Source: an uncultured Flavobacteriaceae bacterium
GTDB lineage: Bacteria > Bacteroidota > Bacteroidia > Flavobacteriales > Flavobacteriaceae
DNA length: 64,000 nt
Reading direction: 5' to 3'
NCBI GenBank assembly: GCA_943789455.1
Contig: CALSUE010000001.1
Coordinates: forward strand, 127,001-191,000
Shown: positions 12,812 to 26,682 of the stretch, in pieces
Layout: every line of letters begins with the position of its first letter
Position numbering within the stretch: position 1 is the first letter of the stretch
Translations under genes and position numbers: made by a program
Notes under the pieces: generated by a model
Told to the model about the DNA's origin: nothing
Database searches by the model: none
Seen by the model: only the letters and a program-made list of their open reading frames with translations

Positions 12812-14110
12812 TTAGGCAAGAGCATCTTTGTAAGTTTTCAGACAACGCTCTCTTGCAAATTTATGATCTACCATTGGGCTTGGGTAGGTAATTTCTTGAA
12901 AATCTGGAACCCATTTTTGAATGTATTTTAACTCTTTGTCAAATTTTTGTATCTGACTAGTGGGATTAAAAATTCTAAAATAAGGTGATGCATCAACACC
13001 AGTACCTGCTACCCATTGCCAATTTCCCACGTTGCTAGACATTTCGTAGTCATGTAATTTTTCAGCAAAATAGGCTTCACCCCAACGCCAATCGATAAGT
13101 AAATGTTTACATAAAAAACTTCCTACAAGCATACGAACTCTATTGTGCATAAATCCGGTTTTATTTAACTGCCTCATTCCAGCATCTACCATTGGATATC
13201 CAGTGTTTCCCTCGCACCATTTTTTAAATTCTTTTTCGTTATTTCTCCAAATAATTCTATCGTATTTTGATTTGAAAGAATTTTTATGGGTTTCAGGAAA
13301 ATGCCATAAAATTTGCATAAAAAATTCCCTCCAAATTAATTCTTTGAGAAAAATTTTATTTTCATGTGCATCTGCTCTAGAAACCATTTGGCGAACACTA
13401 ACGGTTCCAAAACGTAGGTGAGGCCCTAATTTAGATGTATTGTCAAGTGCAGGAAAGTTACGAGTCTCTTCGTATTCGTTAATAATTCTAGAATTAAAAA
13501 TATAGTTTTTTATAGGGATATTAGTCTCAATAAACCCAATATCACTTAGCGTAAGCGTTTCTGATTTTGTTTTTTTGTAAAGTCGATCTAAAAAATCTTC
13601 AGAGGGATAATTTCCAGGTTTATTTGTTTCATATTTCTCCAACCATTTCTTCGAATAAGGCGTATACACCACATAAGGTTTTCCATCTTTTTTTGTTATT
13701 TCGTTTCTTTCGAAAATTACTTGGTCTTTGTAGGTCTGAAAATCAATCTTACTTGATGATACAACTTCTTTTATATCTAAATCTCGTTTTATAGCATAAG
13801 GTTCATAATCATGATTTGTAAACACCTTTACTATAGTATAGTTTTTCATCAGTGACCTAAAAACATCTTTTGGATTTCCATGAAACATTTTTATCTCAGT
13901 TCCAAATGATTCCAAATGCATATTCATAGCCTTTAGCTCTGAGTAAATAAATGAAATTCGGGCATCATCTTTAGGTATTTTTTTTAGTATATCAATATCA
14001 AATATGAAAATTGGGAGTATTTTTTCTTCAGATTGAAGTGCATGAAAAAGTGCTTTATTATCATGTAATCTTAAATCTCTACGAAACCAAAAAATTGAAA
14101 TTTTATCCAT
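12812..14110 (-). CDS. Deoxyribodipyrimidine photolyase (CPD class I-like)
   Basis: FWFRRDLRLHDN; KELIWREFF; DYEMSSNVGNWQWVAGTGVDASPYFRIFNP. Confidence 0.95.
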   Translation of the reverse strand: MDKISIFWFRRDLRLHDNKALFHALQSEEKILPIFIFDIDILKKIPKDDARISFIYSELKAMNMHLESFGTEIKMFHGNPKDVFRSLMKNYTIVKVFTNHDYEPYAIKRDLDIKEVVSSSKIDFQTYKDQVIFERNEITKKDGKPYVVYTPYSKKWLEKYETNKPGNYPSEDFLDRLYKKTKSETLTLSDIGFIETNIPIKNYIFNSRIINEYEETRNFPALDNTSKLGPHLRFGTVSVRQMVSRADAHENKIFLKELIWREFFMQILWHFPETHKNSFKSKYDRIIWRNNEKEFKKWCEGNTGYPMVDAGMRQLNKTGFMHNRVRMLVGSFLCKHLLIDWRWGEAYFAEKLHDYEMSSNVGNWQWVAGTGVDASPYFRIFNPTSQIQKFDKELKYIQKWVPDFQEITYPSPMVDHKFARERCLKTYKDALA

Positions 14111-16672: not shown

Positions 16673-17371
16673 TTAATCTTTTAAATAGTTCAATAATTCG
16701 TTAATTTTTGATGGAGTATTAAATGCTCCTCCATAATATGAGGTAACTGTTGCAGAAGTATCATCTTTAATACCCCTTGACGATACGCATAAATGTTTAG
16801 CGTCAATAATAACAGCTATATCTTCTGTTTGCAGTGAAGCTTTTAATTCTTCTGCAATTTGATTAGTTAGCCTTTCTTGTACTTGAGGTCTTTTTGCATA
16901 ATACTGAACAATTCGATTCAATTTAGAAAGTCCAATTACTTTTCCTGATGATATGTATGCAATATGCGCCTTACCTATAATTGGTACAAAATGATGTTCG
17001 CAATTAGAGTAGAAAGTAATATTCTTCTCAACCAACATCTGATTGTATTTATATTTATTGTCAAATAAAGCAATTTTTGGCTTATTATTAGGATTTAATC
17101 CAGAAAATATTTCCTCTATATACATTTTGGCTACTCTTTTTGGTGTACCCTTGAGAGAATCGTCTGTGAGATCTAATCCCATCACATCCATGATTTCTCT
17201 GAATAAAATTGCAATTTTTTCCTTCTTTTCTTCATCAGATATGACAAAGGCGTCTGGCTTCATTGGGGTTTCTAATCCAGTGTATAAATGATCATCACCA
17301 ATATCATCGATTGAAAAATCATTGAGTTGACTTCCTTTTTTTAATTCTTTTATTAATCTATTTGTATTCAT
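16673..17371 (-). CDS. folE: GTP cyclohydrolase I
   Basis: YSNCEHHFVPIIGKAHIAYI; IGLSKLNRIVQYYAKRPQVQERLT; DAKHLCVSSRGIKDDTS. Confidence 0.96.
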   Translation of the reverse strand: MNTNRLIKELKKGSQLNDFSIDDIGDDHLYTGLETPMKPDAFVISDEEKKEKIAILFREIMDVMGLDLTDDSLKGTPKRVAKMYIEEIFSGLNPNNKPKIALFDNKYKYNQMLVEKNITFYSNCEHHFVPIIGKAHIAYISSGKVIGLSKLNRIVQYYAKRPQVQERLTNQIAEELKASLQTEDIAVIIDAKHLCVSSRGIKDDTSATVTSYYGGAFNTPSKINELLNYLKD

Positions 17372-17430: not shown

Positions 17431-17712
17431 TTATCTTTTTGATATAGAGTTGTTAGATATTTGTCTTTGTCTGGTACATTTAAACCTTCCACTTTCAAAT
17501 TCTCTTAGTTTACTGTGTTTTGTTTTTCTCCCCTGAACTCTTTTTCTCCATAATTTAAAACTTTTTAGTTTCATTTCTTTTCTCATTAGGCTAATGACCT
17601 CCTGTTCACCTAGACCGAACTGAAATTTTATGGCATCAAATGTTGTTCTATCTTCCCATGCCATTTCAATAATTCTATCTATGTCAATATTAGATAATTT
17701 ATTCATAAGCAT
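17431..17712 (-). CDS. TIGR03643/DUF2805 family protein
   Basis: IDRIIEMAWEDRTTFDAIKFQFGLGEQEVISLMRKEMKLKSFKLWRKRVQGRKTKH. Confidence 0.85.
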   Translation of the reverse strand: MLMNKLSNIDIDRIIEMAWEDRTTFDAIKFQFGLGEQEVISLMRKEMKLKSFKLWRKRVQGRKTKHSKLREFESGRFKCTRQRQISNNSISKR

Positions 17713-18130
17713 GATTTAAATACTTTTCTTGATTTACAGCCCTTAAATTAATCATTTTTGAAATGAATTTTTTATTTTCTTTAAAAAGTATATTATTTTT
17801 AAAGCAAATATATTTTCCCTGAGCATGAATACTCAATCTATCTGTTTTGTAGATCACGAGTTGTCTGTAGGGTATAATCCAGTTATAATTGTGTAACCCT
17901 TTGTTTAATAAAACGATAATACCTTCAGGTCTAAGCTCTATGTTCGCGTAATTTATATCAGATATTTTGTTGATGTATTGATGAAAGTTTTGACTAGTTT
18001 CTTCAATAATCATTCTTTTAGAACCTACACCCCCCATTCTTAAGGATTGTAAAAAGGTAAAAGGTAAACCTATTAAATCATCAGTCAATTCTTTTGCCTC
18101 TTTATTCGTATATGTTGTTGTGAATATCAT
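17699..18130 (-). CDS. Hypothetical protein (143 aa)
   Basis: ORF overlaps TIGR03643 gene; preceded by a good Bacteroidetes-type promoter. Confidence 0.75.
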   Translation of the reverse strand: MIFTTTYTNKEAKELTDDLIGLPFTFLQSLRMGGVGSKRMIIEETSQNFHQYINKISDINYANIELRPEGIIVLLNKGLHNYNWIIPYRQLVIYKTDRLSIHAQGKYICFKNNILFKENKKFISKMINLRAVNQEKYLNHAYE

Positions 18131-18216: not shown

Positions 18217-19719
18217 TTAAGGAGTTAAGCTTTTTATGTTGTCTGTAAGTAGAAGGTTTCTATTGGATAATGTATGCTTAAGAAGTATTCTTTTATTTTC
18301 CTCTTTAACTTGAGCGTTTTTCTTCAAATTCCATAATATATCTGAGGCATTTTTTCTTGTTTTTTTTAAATCAACTATTGGATTTGGGTAATCCTTTCCA
18401 AGTGTAAAATCGTACATCTGTTGCTCAAGTGGTGTCATTAAATAAGGTTCATGAGCAAAATTAGTTTCTAAATCTTTCAATTCTGGAACCCATTTTTTTA
18501 TAAATATTGCGTCTTCATCATGCTCTTTTCCATTTTTTATGGGATTGTAAATTCTGAGATTGTTTATTCCTGTTTCACCTGCTTGCATCTGAAGCTGTGG
18601 GAAATGTATTCCAGGTTCAAAATCTAAAAACATTTGAGAGAGATGTGTTGTTGCATCTTGCCAAGGTTGCCAGAGGATATGTGTAAAAAAAGAAACTGTT
18701 AATGCGCGCATTCTAAAATTTAAATACCCTGTTTCTTGAAGGCATCGCATACATGCATCTACTAAGGGAAATCCGGTTTGTCCTTTAATCCATGCGTCTT
18801 GGTATTTTTTTGAAATGGATTTTTTAAGTTTATGGTACCCTTTGTTTACACTAGCTTTTTCCATAACGTGCTCCATTTCGAACTTTTGTATAAAGTGGGC
18901 TTGCCATCTTAGTCTTGACAAAAATGCTCCTATATTTTTAGTGTTTTTTTTGGTTTTTTCTTTTCTTCCCCTCTGGAATACCTCTCTTACTGAAAGGTTA
19001 CCCCAAGCTAGGTATGGAGATAATCTACTACAGCTAGTTCTTGATAAGGCAGGTTTTGAAATATTAAACATATAATCTTTGTGTCTTTCTTTAAAAAAAC
19101 TATTTAGATATCTATATCCTAAACTTCTACCTCCTTTTTGAAACTTCATATTTGTTGAGGTTTCTAATACTGCTGGATTTGAAATATTTTCTAGTGTTAA
19201 AATATCATCAATATTTAATAACTGATTATCTAGAGGATTAAATACTTCTAATTTTTCATTCATAAATATTTCCCACTCATCAAACCAATTTTCTCTGTGT
19301 TGTAGTCCTCTTTGAACTCCATTGTTTACATTTTCTTTCCAATCAATATTATTATTTCTACAGTATCTTTTAAATTCTTTATCTCTAGTATATGTTGTTA
19401 AAATTCCGGTTTCTTGATGTGAATAGATGGTTTCAATTGTGTAGAAATTTTGAATTTGATTACATAATCCTATGACATCTGAAGCAACAGATAATATTTT
19501 TGACTGATGTTCTTTCAGTTCAGAATTTATGTCTACTAAAGATTGTTTTATAAAGTTCCAATGTCTACTATTATAGTGGGGGTCATTCATCAAAATTTTT
19601 TCAAAAGCATAAAAAATTAAAAATCTTTTTCCATTTTTTATAGCCCTACTTATGGCTTCATTGTCATGCAGCCTTAAATCTCTTTTTAACCAAACTAGAT
19701 TTATTTTTTCTTTATTCAT
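18217..19719 (-). CDS. Divergent cryptochrome/photolyase-family FAD-binding protein
   Basis: LVWLKRDLRLHDN N-terminus; SRLSPYLAWGNLSVREV; FPLVDACMRCL; but FEPGIHFPQLQMQAGETGINNLRIYNP in place of SNxGNWQW. Confidence 0.92.
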   Translation of the reverse strand: MNKEKINLVWLKRDLRLHDNEAISRAIKNGKRFLIFYAFEKILMNDPHYNSRHWNFIKQSLVDINSELKEHQSKILSVASDVIGLCNQIQNFYTIETIYSHQETGILTTYTRDKEFKRYCRNNNIDWKENVNNGVQRGLQHRENWFDEWEIFMNEKLEVFNPLDNQLLNIDDILTLENISNPAVLETSTNMKFQKGGRSLGYRYLNSFFKERHKDYMFNISKPALSRTSCSRLSPYLAWGNLSVREVFQRGRKEKTKKNTKNIGAFLSRLRWQAHFIQKFEMEHVMEKASVNKGYHKLKKSISKKYQDAWIKGQTGFPLVDACMRCLQETGYLNFRMRALTVSFFTHILWQPWQDATTHLSQMFLDFEPGIHFPQLQMQAGETGINNLRIYNPIKNGKEHDEDAIFIKKWVPELKDLETNFAHEPYLMTPLEQQMYDFTLGKDYPNPIVDLKKTRKNASDILWNLKKNAQVKEENKRILLKHTLSNRNLLLTDNIKSLTP

Positions 19720-21187
19720 CTAATTGTTTTATAAATTCTTCAGCATTTCTAAAATGTGATTCTTTTTTATCCTGATTCATTTTATCAAAAGTTCTTATTA
19801 GCATTCCTAACCTTGGATTCTTTAGAAAGAAACTTCGATGCTTATCCATAAAAGTCCAAAATAATCCATCCCATGCTGCCTGCCAATCTCCTTTTTTGTA
19901 ATTACTCATTTTCATGATATAATTACTGCTACTTATATACGGCTTGGTAGACATTAAGCCTCCATCTGCATATAAACTCATCCCATATACATTAGGAACC
20001 ATAACCCAATCATATGAGTCTATGAATAATTCCATAAACCATTGATACACATCGTCTGGATCAAACTCACACAATACCATAAAATTACCCAAAACCATAA
20101 GCCGTTCAATGTGATGGGCATATCCTGTATTTAAAACCTTCTTAATAGCATCATCTATTGGTTCAATTCCTGTAGTCCCGGTGTAGAAAGAAGCAGGTAT
20201 TTTTCTAGAAAACCCCCAAAAGTTTTTTGTGCGTTCTTCAGAACCTTTAACACCATAAACCCCTCTAATAAATTCTCTCCAACCAATTATTTGTCTAACA
20301 AAACCTTCTGTAGAGTTGATTGGAATATCATTTTTTTCTGCAAATTCGAGAGTTTGTTTAATAACCTCCATGGGATTTAATAATCCCACATTAATTAATG
20401 GAGATAAAATACTGTGATTTAAAAAAACTTCTTTTTGAACAATAGCATCTTCATAATCACCAAACTCTTTAAATCTTTTTTCTAAAAACTGGTCAAGCCA
20501 AGCCTGCGAGGTTTTAAAATCTATGGGATAAATAATTGAACTACTTAACTGACCGTAGTGAGAATTAAAATGGTTGTTAACATATTCCTCAGCTTCGATG
20601 TGATAAGGTGTTTTCTCAGGAAAGTTAATTGTAGGCGGCTTTTTGTTTTTTGGATATTTTTTTCTGTTTTCCGAATCAAAAGTTAATTTTCCCCCTACTG
20701 GTTCTCCATTAGACATTAAGATATTTCTTTTTATTCGTTGTTGCTTATAAAAAGAGGTTTGAAAAAATTTCTTTTTTGAAGAACTAAAAAATGTATTAAG
20801 TTCATTTTTAGTATTAATGAATAAAGGGTTATTATACCATGTAATTGAAATGTCTTTTGAAGTGTTTTTGATATGTTTTTCTAACCAATTGTCATTGGGT
20901 TCAATAATATGTAACTCTTCTAAACCTTTTTTAATGAGGTTTGGAATTAATTTCCGAACATCAGAAAGTTCAGAGGTAGCATTTATGTAGGAAACTTTAT
21001 GACCAAGTGAGGTGAGGTAACTAGAATAACTTTTCATGGTGGCTCTATGAAAAGCAATTTTTTGTTTATGAAACTTATAGTGATTAAAAAATAAAAATTC
21101 CTCTACGATATACAATTCACATTTTAAATCTTTAAAAGGTGGAATCTCGAAGAGTTGGTTTGGGAAAACTAATGCAACTGTTTTCAT
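19712..21187 (-). CDS. Cryptochrome/photolyase family protein related to FeS-BCP/CryB (DPRP domain)
   Basis: FPNQLFE start; GWREFIRGVYG; WVMVPNVYGMSLYADGGLMSTKPYISSSNYI. Confidence 0.93.
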   Translation of the reverse strand: MKTVALVFPNQLFEIPPFKDLKCELYIVEEFLFFNHYKFHKQKIAFHRATMKSYSSYLTSLGHKVSYINATSELSDVRKLIPNLIKKGLEELHIIEPNDNWLEKHIKNTSKDISITWYNNPLFINTKNELNTFFSSSKKKFFQTSFYKQQRIKRNILMSNGEPVGGKLTFDSENRKKYPKNKKPPTINFPEKTPYHIEAEEYVNNHFNSHYGQLSSSIIYPIDFKTSQAWLDQFLEKRFKEFGDYEDAIVQKEVFLNHSILSPLINVGLLNPMEVIKQTLEFAEKNDIPINSTEGFVRQIIGWREFIRGVYGVKGSEERTKNFWGFSRKIPASFYTGTTGIEPIDDAIKKVLNTGYAHHIERLMVLGNFMVLCEFDPDDVYQWFMELFIDSYDWVMVPNVYGMSLYADGGLMSTKPYISSSNYIMKMSNYKKGDWQAAWDGLFWTFMDKHRSFFLKNPRLGMLIRTFDKMNQDKKESHFRNAEEFIKQLDE

Positions 21188-21190
21188 GTG

Positions 21191-22510
21191 TTAAAATAGT
21201 GTTTGTTGTAGCCAACGATTTCTAAATAGATGGGCAGGATCGTAACGTTCTGCTTGAAGTTGGGTATTAAACTTTCGATCTCTTGGATCGTTACCTACAC
21301 CAGAAACATACATCCAGTTTCCAAAGTTGCTATGAACATCATAGTCTAGTAATATAGATTCAAAATAGGCCGCACCAATTCTCCAATCTAATGTTAGCTC
21401 TTTGGCAAAATAAGAAGCAACATTTTGTCTTCCTCTATTGCTCATCCAGCCTGTTCGTTTTAATTCTATCATGTTGGCATTCACAAAATCATCTTTTGTC
21501 TCTCCATTAATCCAATTTTGTATAATTTTTCTATTGGAAGACCATGAGTAGTTTTTATTCAAAATTCCACCAATCTTAAAGATATTGTTGCCATGTTTTA
21601 ATGAAATGTATTTAAAATAATCTCTCCAAATCAATTCAAAAATAAGCCAATATGTAGACTGATTTTTTATTTCATCTTTCTCAAATTTTTTAACATTCCA
21701 ATAAATAGTTCTTGCTGAGAGTGATCCATTGGCCAACCAAGGAGAAAATTTAGAGCTGTAGTCTGTACCTATTAATCCATTTCTTGTTTTTTTATAAAAT
21801 CCCAATTTTTTTGTTTCAAAAAAATAATTATGTAACCTTTTCAAGGATTCACTTTCTCCTCCATGAAATGGAAAAGCTGTTTTTTTGTCTTTCTCGAACA
21901 ACTTAAAACCTAGCTCATTTAATGTTGGAATATGATTTGTAGTGTTAATAATATTTGTTGAATTCAATTTTTGAACTTCAGTAGTAGCTCGTATTGCAAC
22001 ATATTTTTCTAGTTTTTTTCTCAAATTAGAAAATACCTGGGGTATATTTTCAATTTTAACATTTACATCTTCAGGATGATATAAAAACTGATTATAAACC
22101 TCTATTATTTGTATAGTATTGTGTATTGATTTTTGAACCTTAATTTTAGAAATATTCTCTTCATGCGTCCATTCTTTCTGTTTGTATATAGCATCAATTT
22201 GATAGCTATCACATATAGTTTTAAGTTTAATTTCTGGTTTGTCTAAGAAAACTAGTAATGAAATATTTTTTGTAAATAATTGGTGTTTAAGATCGTGCAA
22301 TGATTCTAAAAGAAATTGTGCTCTAAATACATCCATTTTTTTAAAACCAAACTCATTTTCTTCAAATAAGCTGGGATCTATAATATAGATACCTATTACT
22401 TTTGAATGGTTTTTAACGGCAAGACTCAGTACATCATTATCATGAATTCTAAGATCATTTCCAAACCAAACGAGCCCCGTAGTATTTTTTATTTCTGTTT
22501 TGTCAATCAA
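21191..22510 (-). CDS. DASH-type cryptochrome
   Basis: LVWFGNDLRIHDN; FELIWRDYFKYISLKHG; SNFGNWMYVSGVGNDPRDRKFN; YDPAHLFRNRW. Confidence 0.94.
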   Translation of the reverse strand: MIDKTEIKNTTGLVWFGNDLRIHDNDVLSLAVKNHSKVIGIYIIDPSLFEENEFGFKKMDVFRAQFLLESLHDLKHQLFTKNISLLVFLDKPEIKLKTICDSYQIDAIYKQKEWTHEENISKIKVQKSIHNTIQIIEVYNQFLYHPEDVNVKIENIPQVFSNLRKKLEKYVAIRATTEVQKLNSTNIINTTNHIPTLNELGFKLFEKDKKTAFPFHGGESESLKRLHNYFFETKKLGFYKKTRNGLIGTDYSSKFSPWLANGSLSARTIYWNVKKFEKDEIKNQSTYWLIFELIWRDYFKYISLKHGNNIFKIGGILNKNYSWSSNRKIIQNWINGETKDDFVNANMIELKRTGWMSNRGRQNVASYFAKELTLDWRIGAAYFESILLDYDVHSNFGNWMYVSGVGNDPRDRKFNTQLQAERYDPAHLFRNRWLQQTLF

Positions 22511-22518
22511 TTTTTAAC

Positions 22519-22650
22519 TTATCTTTTGTTTCTCCTGCATCTTTCACTACAATATTTAACTTGTTCCCAGTTTTTTTCCCATTTTTTTCTCCAGTTAAAT
22601 GGTTTTTCACAAACTGCACAATATTTTACTGGCAAATGCTGTTTTTTCAA
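22519..22650 (-). CDS. DUF2256 domain protein (43 aa, TTG start), absent from the ORF track
   Basis: Translation [43 protein letters not shown]; start abuts the upstream stop (TAG-TTG). Confidence 0.9.
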
Positions 22651-24078
22651 CTATTTTGTTTTAATTATTCTATTAATCATACCGTTAAAAACGAACCAAT
22701 GGAGTGGTGTAACTAAATACCAATATAATCTACCAGCAACTCCTTTGGGTCTAAATGTTGCTGTTTGATATAAAACATTTTTTTCAATTTTAAATTCCAG
22801 CCAAGCTTCACCAGGCAATTTCATTTCTGCATAAAGCAATAATTTTTTTTGGTTCTTATCTGCATATATTACTCTCCAGAAATCTAACGCATCTCCATTA
22901 CGTAATTCTGTTGGACTCCTTCTTCCCCTTCTTAATCCTGTGCCTCCGTAAAACTGATCTATATACCCCCTAATTTTCCATAAAAATGTCCCATAGTACC
23001 ACCCGTTATTTCCACCAATTGACCAAATTTTATTGATGGTTTTTTCTGTATCAATAACATCTCTTTGCTTGAAGTCTTTAAAACATCCATAACTAGGTAC
23101 ATTAATGTATTTGTGTATGTAGTTTTGAAGCTTACCACTACTTATGTATGAATCTTTCCAACTTGATATAATACTGTTTTGTTCAATTTTAATAAAAGCT
23201 AATTCTATAGCTTTTTTGTAATTCATTGGATATATCTCCAGTAATGAATTTATAGATGATTTTTCTCCTATAATCTCTATCCCCATACTATTCACAAGGG
23301 AGGATGCTAATTTATATGAGGTTGACGTAACAAAATATAGCCAGTAAGAAGAAAGTTTTGGTGTCATTATGGGAACTGTAACTATTGTTCTTTTTAGTCC
23401 ACGAAACTTTGCAAATTGCAATAACATTTCTTTATAAGTTAATACCTGAGGTCCAAATATGTCAAAGGATTTATGGTACAATTCTTTTTTACCAATTGCT
23501 TTACTTAAAAAAGACAAAACATCTCTAACTCCTATGGGTTGTGTTTTAGTATTCAGCCATCTTGGTGCGATCATGAAGGGAAGTTTCTCAACTAAATCTC
23601 TTATGATTTCAAAAGAGGAGCTGCCAGATCCAACAATAATTCCAGCTTTAAAAGTAGTTAGAGCATACTGTTTAGACTGAAGTGTTTTTTCGACATTTTT
23701 TCTAGAAAGAAGATGTTTAGATAACTTAGTGTCATTAGTAATACCACTAAGATAAATGACTTGCTTTACCGATGTTTTTTCTAGTGCTCTCTTAAAGTTA
23801 AAAGCACAACGCTCTTCAAGAATATGAAACTCTTTCGCAGAATTAGACATGGAATGAATGAGGTAAAAAGCAATATCAATTTCTGATGGAATTAAACGTA
23901 ATGAATTAGCTTTTAAAAAATCAATTTCAACAAATTCTATTTTTTCATCTTTAGCATATAGATGCTCTATTCTTGCGATATCTCTTACAGTACATATTAA
24001 GTGATGGCCTTCGTTTAATAAAATTGGAATTAAACGTTTTCCTATATAACCTGTTGCACCTGTAATGAGAATTTTCAT
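22651..24078 (-). CDS. SDR/NAD(P)H-binding protein with C-terminal DUF2867
   Basis: ILITGATGYIGKRLIPILL; C-terminal RLYWYLVTPLHWFVFNGMI. Confidence 0.9.
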   Translation of the reverse strand: MKILITGATGYIGKRLIPILLNEGHHLICTVRDIARIEHLYAKDEKIEFVEIDFLKANSLRLIPSEIDIAFYLIHSMSNSAKEFHILEERCAFNFKRALEKTSVKQVIYLSGITNDTKLSKHLLSRKNVEKTLQSKQYALTTFKAGIIVGSGSSSFEIIRDLVEKLPFMIAPRWLNTKTQPIGVRDVLSFLSKAIGKKELYHKSFDIFGPQVLTYKEMLLQFAKFRGLKRTIVTVPIMTPKLSSYWLYFVTSTSYKLASSLVNSMGIEIIGEKSSINSLLEIYPMNYKKAIELAFIKIEQNSIISSWKDSYISSGKLQNYIHKYINVPSYGCFKDFKQRDVIDTEKTINKIWSIGGNNGWYYGTFLWKIRGYIDQFYGGTGLRRGRRSPTELRNGDALDFWRVIYADKNQKKLLLYAEMKLPGEAWLEFKIEKNVLYQTATFRPKGVAGRLYWYLVTPLHWFVFNGMINRIIKTK

Positions 24079-24079
24079 A

Positions 24080-24709
24080 CTACTTCATTGTATTTAATTT
24101 CTTAGGTCTTTGATAACTAAATCTAGTGTTATTGTTTGCAATAGCGTATGCATCTAATCCATTAATAGCCGCTACTTTTCCTTTTGCTAAATCTAAAAAT
24201 CCATCTTCATTTAAAATATCATCTTTTACATACAAATTTTTAATTTCCGCAATGATGTGTATTACATTATTTGATTTGATGTGATACTCTTCTATAAACT
24301 TCATTTCCATTTGAACTGGAGAACCTTTTACAAAAGGGGCAATGCAATCGTTGTAATATTCATCTTCTAGTGTAGTGATATCAAATTCTGATATTGCTTC
24401 TTCATATTTCGCTGATGTGTGATGGGCGTCTTCTATGATGTCTTCAAAAATATGATTAATGGTAAAAACACCAGATTCAAGGATGTTTTTGTAAGTATCT
24501 CTTGGAACTGTTGTTGGTCTTAAAATAAACCCCAGAGTAGGGGGGTTAGAGCCCAAATGAGTTACAGAACTAAAAACAGCTACATTAGTGATTCCTTCTT
24601 TAGAAATTGTTCCTATTAGGTTAGCAGATTTATAGCCTGAGCATGAATTGATTAAGTTAATTTTCTTAATCTTTTCAAGGTCATTTATTTGATCTCTGGT
24701 ATAATGCAT
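24080..24709 (-). CDS. Flavin reductase family protein (FMN-binding split barrel)
   Basis: SVTHLGSNPPTLGFILRPTTVPRDTYKNI. Confidence 0.9.
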   Translation of the reverse strand: MHYTRDQINDLEKIKKINLINSCSGYKSANLIGTISKEGITNVAVFSSVTHLGSNPPTLGFILRPTTVPRDTYKNILESGVFTINHIFEDIIEDAHHTSAKYEEAISEFDITTLEDEYYNDCIAPFVKGSPVQMEMKFIEEYHIKSNNVIHIIAEIKNLYVKDDILNEDGFLDLAKGKVAAINGLDAYAIANNNTRFSYQRPKKLNTMK

Positions 24710-26020
24710 TTATATTATTTTGTAATTATTAATTTTAATTTTATTAGCCTTTAAGTCGAACATTAAATTATAAAGACCAAAGAAAGTTCTATTAATATAA
24801 ATAAAATGTTTTGAACCTCGGTTTCCGTTCATTTTTCTCAATTCAGTACTCTTACTGTATCTTTCTCCAAGTTCTGTGATTTTATTAAAAAATTCAGGGT
24901 CAGAAAAATCAAATTCATCTTGATTAAATGGTTTTGTAAACAGACTTAATAATTCATGAAATAAATCTTTGAAAAATATAATTTCTTCATTTGAGTCGTC
25001 TGCTCTTAAAATTTCTAATTCATACAGTTTTTTTGTAAAAAAATCTGGATTCTTTAAGTTGGCTTCTACTGCTAATTCAAAATAAGGTATATAAAATTCT
25101 GTAGGGATTGATTTCATACAGCCAAAATCTAAGGCTATTAAGTCACCCTCTTTTGATACAAGAAAATTACCTGGGTGTGGGTCTGCATGAACTTTTCTTA
25201 AGTTATGAAGCTGATGCATATAAAAATCCCATAATGCCTGACCGAGTTTATTTGATAACTCTATATTACTATTATACGCAGTAAATTCAGACAGATGTTC
25301 ACCTTTCATCCAGTCCATAGTTATTATTCTATCTGATGAAATTTCTGGATAATAGTTTGGAAATTTTAAGTTTGGAATATGCTTACATTTTTCCACAATT
25401 TCTTTACTTTGATCTAATTCAAGTAAATAATTTGTTTCTTCTACCAATTTATCCTCAACTTCTTTAAAATATTTATCAGAGTCTTTACCTCTAATGTTAA
25501 ACATTTTGACAGCTATTGGTTTTACAAGCGATAAATCTGATGCTATACTATCTGCAACACCAGGATATTGAATCTTTACAGCTAGTTTTTTTCCATATTT
25601 TTCAGCTGCGTGAACTTGGCCAATACTCGCTGCATTTACAGAGGTTGAATTGAATTTGTCATAAATTTGATCAGGATGTTTGCCAAAATATTTTTTAAAT
25701 GTCTTAATCACTAAGGCGGGAGATAATGGAGGAACAGAAAATTGTGCCAATGAAAACTTTTCAACATAAGCTTGAGGTAGAATACTTTTCTCCATACTCA
25801 ACATTTGGGCAACTTTTAATGCGCTTCCTTTCAATTTCTTCAAGCCGTCATAGATGTCTTCTGCATTATTTTCATTGAGCCGTTGTTTAGCCTCTTGCTC
25901 AGTTTTTGTTATTTTATCGCCATAATATTTAATATAATTTACACCAACTTTAGCGCCAGTTTGCACCATTCTTGTTGCTCTTTGAATTTTTGATGTGGGG
26001 ATATTGTCTATGGTTTTCAT
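24710..26020 (-). CDS. ABC1/UbiB (AarF) family kinase-like protein
   Basis: NAASIGQVHAAEKYGKKLAVKIQYPG; KVHADPHPGNFLVSKEGDLIALDFGCMK. Confidence 0.94.
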   Translation of the reverse strand: MKTIDNIPTSKIQRATRMVQTGAKVGVNYIKYYGDKITKTEQEAKQRLNENNAEDIYDGLKKLKGSALKVAQMLSMEKSILPQAYVEKFSLAQFSVPPLSPALVIKTFKKYFGKHPDQIYDKFNSTSVNAASIGQVHAAEKYGKKLAVKIQYPGVADSIASDLSLVKPIAVKMFNIRGKDSDKYFKEVEDKLVEETNYLLELDQSKEIVEKCKHIPNLKFPNYYPEISSDRIITMDWMKGEHLSEFTAYNSNIELSNKLGQALWDFYMHQLHNLRKVHADPHPGNFLVSKEGDLIALDFGCMKSIPTEFYIPYFELAVEANLKNPDFFTKKLYELEILRADDSNEEIIFFKDLFHELLSLFTKPFNQDEFDFSDPEFFNKITELGERYSKSTELRKMNGNRGSKHFIYINRTFFGLYNLMFDLKANKIKINNYKII

Positions 26021-26025
26021 TCGAG

Positions 26026-26682
26026 TTAATTGTTGTGAATTTTTTCTTTAAATAAAAACTTACCAAAATCAATAATACTTTTTAGAGGAGTGGTGTCTAT
26101 AAGATCGAAGCTAGCTTTTACAGATTTTTCAATAAAAATATCAGTTTTTTCAAATGAAGAGGAAGTGTCATCTAACCAAAATTTCATTGTTACCAATAAT
26201 TGAAACCATGCAGATTCTTTTAAGGATCTTAACTGTAGTTTTTCAAGACGTTCTTCTTTAAGATCAATGGTTTGAATATTTAAATTTTCAATGTATCCAG
26301 AAAAAGATTTCTTGAGCTCTGTTAAAGCAGCCATCGATTTGAGTTGATTTTTATTTCCAGCTAAAGCATGGACAACGTAGCTCCTATTTGCAGTTAAGTT
26401 TTCAAAAAAAGTATAGTAAAAACTTAACAATTTATTACGTGAATCAAATTCTGAGTAGTCTTCACTGTTTTTTAAAAGTGTTACTGTGTTGTTAAAAAAG
26501 GCATTAAATACACCTTTCTCAATAGCCTCAAATGAACCATAATAGTTGTAAAATAAACTTTCTTCAAAATTATTTTCCTTAGCGAAACTATAAACAGAAG
26601 AAGGGTTTTTGTTGTGATTTAAGACATAATCCATATACCATGAAGTAATGTCGTTTTGAGTGATTTTTTTCTTTTTTGCCAT
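26026..26682 (-). CDS. TetR/AcrR-family transcriptional regulator
   Basis: N-terminal HTH-like NPSSVYSFAKENNFEESLFYNYYGSFEAIEKGVF; helical C-terminus. Confidence 0.85.
   Translation of the reverse strand: MAKKKKITQNDITSWYMDYVLNHNKNPSSVYSFAKENNFEESLFYNYYGSFEAIEKGVFNAFFNNTVTLLKNSEDYSEFDSRNKLLSFYYTFFENLTANRSYVVHALAGNKNQLKSMAALTELKKSFSGYIENLNIQTIDLKEERLEKLQLRSLKESAWFQLLVTMKFWLDDTSSSFEKTDIFIEKSVKASFDLIDTTPLKSIIDFGKFLFKEKIHNN

Follow-up and report, generated by a model that had tools for sequence, protein, structure and literature searches.

The classes of the cryptochrome/photolyase family (CPF) are mostly sorted by Glu274, Asn378 and the Trp triad (E. coli PhrB numbering), and the question raised by the present locus is what a widespread branch with other residues fixed at these places might do, the more so as three conventional members of the family accompany it in marine bacteria exposed to sunlight. 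The gene in question lies at 18217-19719 on the minus strand of a 64,000-nucleotide stretch of flavobacterial DNA (hereafter the window), starts with ATG and encodes a photolyase-like flavoprotein of 500 aa belonging to what we call the "PGIH" clade. It is part of an 18-gene light/UV operon that runs from 26682 down to 12812; all the genes lie on the minus strand, and the spacing between them ranges from -14 to 86 bases. From the head, Pfam identifies a protein with a TetR-type C-terminal domain (26026-26682), an ABC1/UbiB-like atypical kinase (24710-26020), a flavin reductase-like protein (24080-24709) and an NAD(P)-binding and DUF2867 protein (22651-24078). A small Cys protein follows (22519-22650), presumably of the DUF2256 family to judge by its sequence and recognized by neighbor comparison as a frequent companion of the target family, and then CRY-DASH (21191-22510; TIGR02765 475 bits, cut-off 317) and a prokaryotic (6-4)-photolyase-type protein with Pfam domain PF04244, of the Fe-S-less subtype (19712-21187), which overlaps the target start by 8 bases. 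Downstream of the target, after an 86-base gap, are a conserved hypothetical protein of 143 aa seen in neighbor comparison (17699-18130), a conserved neighbor matching the DUF2805/TIGR03643 profile (17431-17712), GTP cyclohydrolase I (folE, 16673-17371), a 75-aa ORF, an SDR, a glutathione peroxidase, a 56-aa ORF, TspO, a protein without a Pfam match that from its sequence we take to be SRPBCC-like, and, at the far end of the run, a class I CPD photolyase (12812-14110) that keeps Glu, Asn and the Trp triad.

Other flavobacteria share much of this gene order. Among 80 named loci, counted within the fetched flank, the target homolog was accompanied by DUF2256 in 47, DUF2805 in 47, the (6-4)-type protein in 44, DASH in 38 and class I in 38, and DUF2256 adjoins or neighbors the homolog in Tritonibacter, Salinivibrio and Pseudoalteromonas plasmids as well. 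Published work (PMC5932025) already describes a cluster of photolyase genes that is enriched in marine Flavobacteriia bearing proteorhodopsin, and a rhodopsin gene is present in this genome, so the cluster as such is not new. Scans for promoters and terminators returned no more sites than in shuffled sequence. A defense system was rejected, PADLOC giving no match.

The target itself is an intact CPF protein by both Pfam and fold model. It has an N-terminal DNA_photolyase domain (PF00875, residues 8-129, 57 bits) and a C-terminal FAD_binding_7 domain (PF03441, residues 266-461, 206 bits), each above its cut-off, and the AF2 model built with 34 sequences of its own family has a complete photolyase fold at high confidence (mean pLDDT 92.3, pTM 0.91), disordered only at residues 490-500 and lacking a cryptochrome-like C-terminal tail. 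A Foldseek comparison of the model with the PDB returned photolyases and cryptochromes at TM 0.75-0.80 and 17-24% identity, including the class III photolyase 4u63 (the best), 6kii, the Drosophila (6-4) photolyase and others; we found no close solved structure, the best sequence match in the PDB being 2e0i (1e-37), and no characterized member of the clade. Two candidates for a characterized ortholog were dropped. The paper on marine Synechococcus Phr1 likens that protein to the V. cholerae cryptochrome, and Halobacterium Phr1 is 42% identical to Phr2 and is therefore probably class I-like.

Alignment with E. coli K-12 Phr (NC_000913.3) and with the class I photolyase of the window located the changes; target codon n ends at 19719-3(n-1), and near-FAD residues were assigned from the alignment rather than from structural distances. 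In PhrB, Glu274 contacts a dimer base and Asn378 sits at flavin N5. The segment NELIWREF reads SRLRWQAHF in the target, so that Glu274 becomes Arg269, with the codons from Arg269 (18913-18915) to Trp272 at the Trp277 position (18904-18906) covering 18904-18915 on the minus strand. The segment AANNGGWQW reads PGIHFPQLQM, and within E368-M378 (EPGIHFPQLQM, 18586-18618, minus strand) His372 takes the Asn378 position, Leu376 that of Trp382 and Met378 that of Trp384. A sequence-only reading of this DNA had already proposed the exchanges of Glu for Arg, Asn for His and the proximal Trp for Leu, and all three hold in the alignment, but its list was incomplete: N341 is replaced by F335, M345 by A339, R278 by Q273, D374 by E368 and T234 by C230, and the distal W306 is lost, its column holding K300. 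Retained are Y222 (Y216), R236 (R232), S238 (S234), W277 (W272), W316 (W310), R342 (R336), R344 (R338), D372 (D366) and R397 (R389), together with the medial W359 (W353). The same reading was right that the N-terminal domain and the FAD-phosphate region persist, the latter as SRLSPYLAWGNLS with C230 in place of T234. The columns of the E. coli MTHF antenna residues N108 and E109 are not conserved. With the proximal and distal Trp missing and the medial one kept, the exchanges argue against both a classical CPD pocket and a classical Trp triad, as had been suggested from the sequence.

Comparison with the known classes did not supply a home for the protein. With class I (PhrB, and 12812-14110 of the window) it shares the two-domain fold and the W277, W359, R344/D372 and R397 columns, but E274, N341, M345, N378, W382, W384 and W306 are replaced and it falls in a separate clade; class I was rejected because of Glu274, Asn378 and Trp382/359/306 only Trp359 is kept, and NF007955 scores 147 bits against a cut-off of 506. 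The A. tumefaciens class III CPD photolyase PhrA (4u63) is the best fold match (TM about 0.8, 22% identity), but class III homologs tree with class I and keep Glu, Asn and WQW. CRY-DASH shares fold and operon with the target, which nonetheless scores 135 bits with TIGR02765 against a cut-off of 317 and lies outside the DASH clade. The eukaryotic-type (6-4) photolyase was rejected because its two active-site His residues, which we take to occupy the E. coli N341 and M345 columns, are Phe335 and Ala339 in the target. The operon-mate of prokaryotic (6-4)/FeS-BCP type (19712-21187) likewise is without a classical Trp triad, but differs by its PF04244 N-terminal domain, where the target has PF00875, the Fe-S subtype of that class being marked by four Cys in addition; prokaryotic (6-4) photolyases have Tyr or Phe beside FAD and no classical triad (PMC12082625). 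NewPHL and PPL had been raised as possible placements as well. NewPHL is excluded by domain order, since its FAD domain is N-terminal and its Z-domain C-terminal (PMC9426592), an inversion of the arrangement in the target, and neither the ppl1/ppl3 motifs of plant PPL nor the MWQNxG and WRDLAY motifs of plant-CRY-like proteins (PMC9498864) were found in the target. SPL was rejected on the features tested, the target having an N-terminal domain.

Phylogenetic analysis showed instead that the "PGIH" proteins form a group of their own. In a maximum likelihood tree of 73 proteins (LG+C20+F+G4, PMSF) they are united with support 100/100 and stand outside class I, class III and DASH; their nearest relatives are cyanobacterial and haloarchaeal plasmid proteins, the wider group having support 100/99. 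The haloarchaeal and Marinobacter branches are long, and their placement is uncertain. The cyanobacterial and haloarchaeal sisters (L127, L167 and L125) agree with the target clade in having Arg in the 274 column and Phe in the 341 column, but they keep Asp or Asn in the 378 column and Trp in the 382 column, and are thus intermediates. The exchange therefore took place in two steps, beginning with the lesion pocket and reaching the flavin N5 site and proximal Trp afterwards. The clade occurs in 44 of 297 sampled Bacteroidota genomes (about 15%) and 27 of 299 sampled Pseudomonadota genomes (9%), counted at strict thresholds, a handful of the weakest hits in either phylum belonging to class I or III. 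It is also present in Bdellovibrionota and Deinococcus and in at least 586 GTDB contig stretches. A viral origin was rejected, as no relative was found in IMG/VR viral contigs and phage matches cover about half of the query at low identity, resembling FAD-domain or class I matches. To call the gene a divergent paralog is therefore too modest, as it belongs to a separate clade that is both large and highly conserved.

The rebuilt site is maintained by selection. In 101 orthologs picked by best BLAST match alone, with residues not used in the choice, R269, H372, W272, F335, R338, D366 and M378 were invariant (101/101). A wider set of 143 gave R269 in 143 and F335 in 142; the H372 count in that set is not independent, the PGIH motif having served in part to choose its members. 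For the window gene compared with near relatives, dN/dS was 0.04-0.08, which together with the invariance of R269 and H372 means that the site is not a product of chance or decay. One explanation is that this is an ordinary CPD (or ssDNA-CPD) photolyase carrying out the same chemistry through other residues. Relatives are annotated as deoxyribodipyrimidine photo-lyase in their records, the fold, W277 and R344/D372 are kept, and other CPF classes use different electron paths, the prokaryotic (6-4) enzymes managing without the triad (PMC12082625); against it, the genome already has class I and DASH enzymes, and six columns of the lesion pocket or flavin site are fixed for other residues, which makes this explanation unlikely. 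Rather, the presence of class I, DASH and prokaryotic (6-4)-type proteins in the genome suggests that the conserved fourth CPF member has a separate task.

Evidence on what that task might be comes from relatives. In the five Deinococcus plasmids examined, from D. gobiensis, D. psychrotolerans, D. sp. QL22, D. proteolyticus and D. radiophilus, the homologous ORF runs on into a uracil-DNA glycosylase with a GQDPYH motif, recognized as PF03167 at E values of 2e-16 to 9e-14 in the three fusions tested. Four of the five are annotated as a single CDS of about 760 aa, and the annotated start of the D. gobiensis "ung" falls inside the photolyase part; two further Deinococcus matches are annotated as the same kind of fusion. 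The copy of Deinococcus sp. QL22 adjoins dinB and a spore-photoproduct-lyase-family gene. Long ORFs around four other loci (L148, L152, L153 and L117) held no domain beyond the two of the CPF. Cytosine in dimers deaminates fast, and photoreversal then leaves uracil. The fusion would suit photoproducts with deaminated cytosine, and would join photoreversal to removal of the uracil left behind.

A second association is found in the alphaproteobacterial-type branch, whose members frequently have a basic, low-complexity tail ending in QLSLF, QMSLF, QLDLF, QLSLPF, QLKLPF, QLSFDL or similar, endings that we take to match the bacterial sliding-clamp-binding consensus (QL[SD]LF, QLxLxL/F). The pattern was written after the first tails had been inspected and was fixed before the hold-out. 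The first set had the motif in 20 of 28 members (20 of the 23 that are not fused, five of the eight without it being UNG fusions), as compared with 1 of 266 other ORFs from the same loci. In the hold-out it was present in 5 of 14 complete alpha-type members, well under the discovery rate, and in 0 of 18 background ORFs, while three further members ended in QGxLF. Overall, 25 of 37 alpha-type members had the motif against a background of 1/284, and it is thus common in this branch and not universal. It occurred in none of 116 members of the Bacteroidota/gamma branch that holds the target. Our literature search returned no paper with both a photolyase and a clamp-binding motif, which is weak evidence, and no description of the UNG fusion or of the clamp-like tail.

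These associations bear on two further explanations. The target could be a blue-light sensor, that is, a cryptochrome that has lost repair and signals by flavin photoreduction along a non-classical path. The loss of Glu274 and of the proximal and distal Trp, the unusual His in the N5-site column and a regulator-like TetR gene at the operon head would all fit, but the target is without a C-terminal signaling extension, W277 and the DNA-groove Arg positions are kept, and relatives are fused to UNG or end in clamp-like tails. We consider a sensor, which the sequence-only reading had offered beside a distinct enzyme, quite improbable and less likely than a DNA-repair role. The other is a non-catalytic or light-independent binder of damage that marks photolesions for UNG, the clamp and excision repair, for which fusion and tails would serve delivery and in favor of which the loss of the catalytic Glu also counts; since a mere binder would not need the flavin-pocket columns Y222, R236, S238, R344 and D372, which are fixed, we regard this as very unlikely.

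The UNG fusions and clamp-like tails of relatives suggest that the altered lesion pocket serves the repair of DNA and not sensing alone, and the best explanation as a whole, which we think somewhat better than evenly balanced, is that the target is a DNA-repair flavoprotein of a separate CPF clade whose lesion pocket and flavin-N5 site have been remodelled. Taken together, the CPF domains and confident predicted fold, the fixed replaced residues, the retention of W277, R342, R344, D372 and R397, the fusion, the tails and the operon would be consistent with it. Counting against it is that the UNG fusion and clamp-like tails occur in sister branches and not in the Bacteroidota branch of the target, and, as the target has neither the classical Glu nor the classical Trp triad, its activity or photoactivation could be lost or different. 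Under this explanation the photolyase fold and most FAD-binding and DNA-groove positions are kept, and Arg269, Phe335, Ala339, Met378 and His372 in place of Glu274, Asn341, Met345, Trp384 and Asn378 remake the lesion pocket and the flavin-N5 site. The protein most likely binds FAD, and most likely takes a flipped-out UV photoproduct into its pocket, where electron transfer driven by light splits it. Because the proximal and distal Trp are gone, photoreduction would follow a different path, as it does in prokaryotic (6-4) photolyases (PMC12082625), or FAD would be kept reduced otherwise, perhaps by the flavin reductase of the operon. Arg at 274 and His at 378 predict another lesion or another protonation scheme, and the substrate may be a lesion or DNA context beyond those of the adjacent class I, DASH and prokaryotic (6-4) enzymes; one branch is probably tethered to the replication clamp. 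A more specific version is a distinct photolyase class that has His at N5 and a lesion pocket containing Arg. Such enzymes would reverse photolesions derived from cytosine, deaminated and holding uracil, or others that are not T-T; the clamp would deliver them, and in Deinococcus a single polypeptide would also take out the leftover uracil. Taken in full, this version is decidedly doubtful. If the target does repair DNA, photolyase chemistry and lesion range would be wider than the known classes indicate, and the fusion and tails tie photorepair directly, and in a way open to test, to uracil removal and the replication fork.

Several minor observations were made on the neighbors and on individual copies. 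DUF2256 (22519-22650) and DUF2805/TIGR03643 (17431-17712), both of unknown function, accompany the clade across phyla and are possible partners of it. CRY-DASH proteins end in WLQxxLF (RNRWLQQTLF in the window, 21191-22510), and QxxLF, which resembles the clamp motif, stands at the extreme C-terminus in 27 of 45 (loci L027 to L106) and in none of the class I and (6-4)-type neighbors. The Halorubrum sp. BOL3-1 plasmid copy (2920-4518 of locus L163) is annotated as two CDSs, a deoxyribodipyrimidine photo-lyase and an FAD-binding protein, and is probably a broken or frameshifted gene. One close relative genome (G013) has two target copies, 93% and 85% identical to that of the window and each with a DASH-like match nearby, and may be a mixed assembly. 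Finally, the (6-4)-type slot of the operon is filled by two forms about 33% identical, that of the window having no Fe-S cysteines (2 Cys only) and the distant one a CxxC...C pattern in 34 of 36, which looks like in-place swapping of subtypes.
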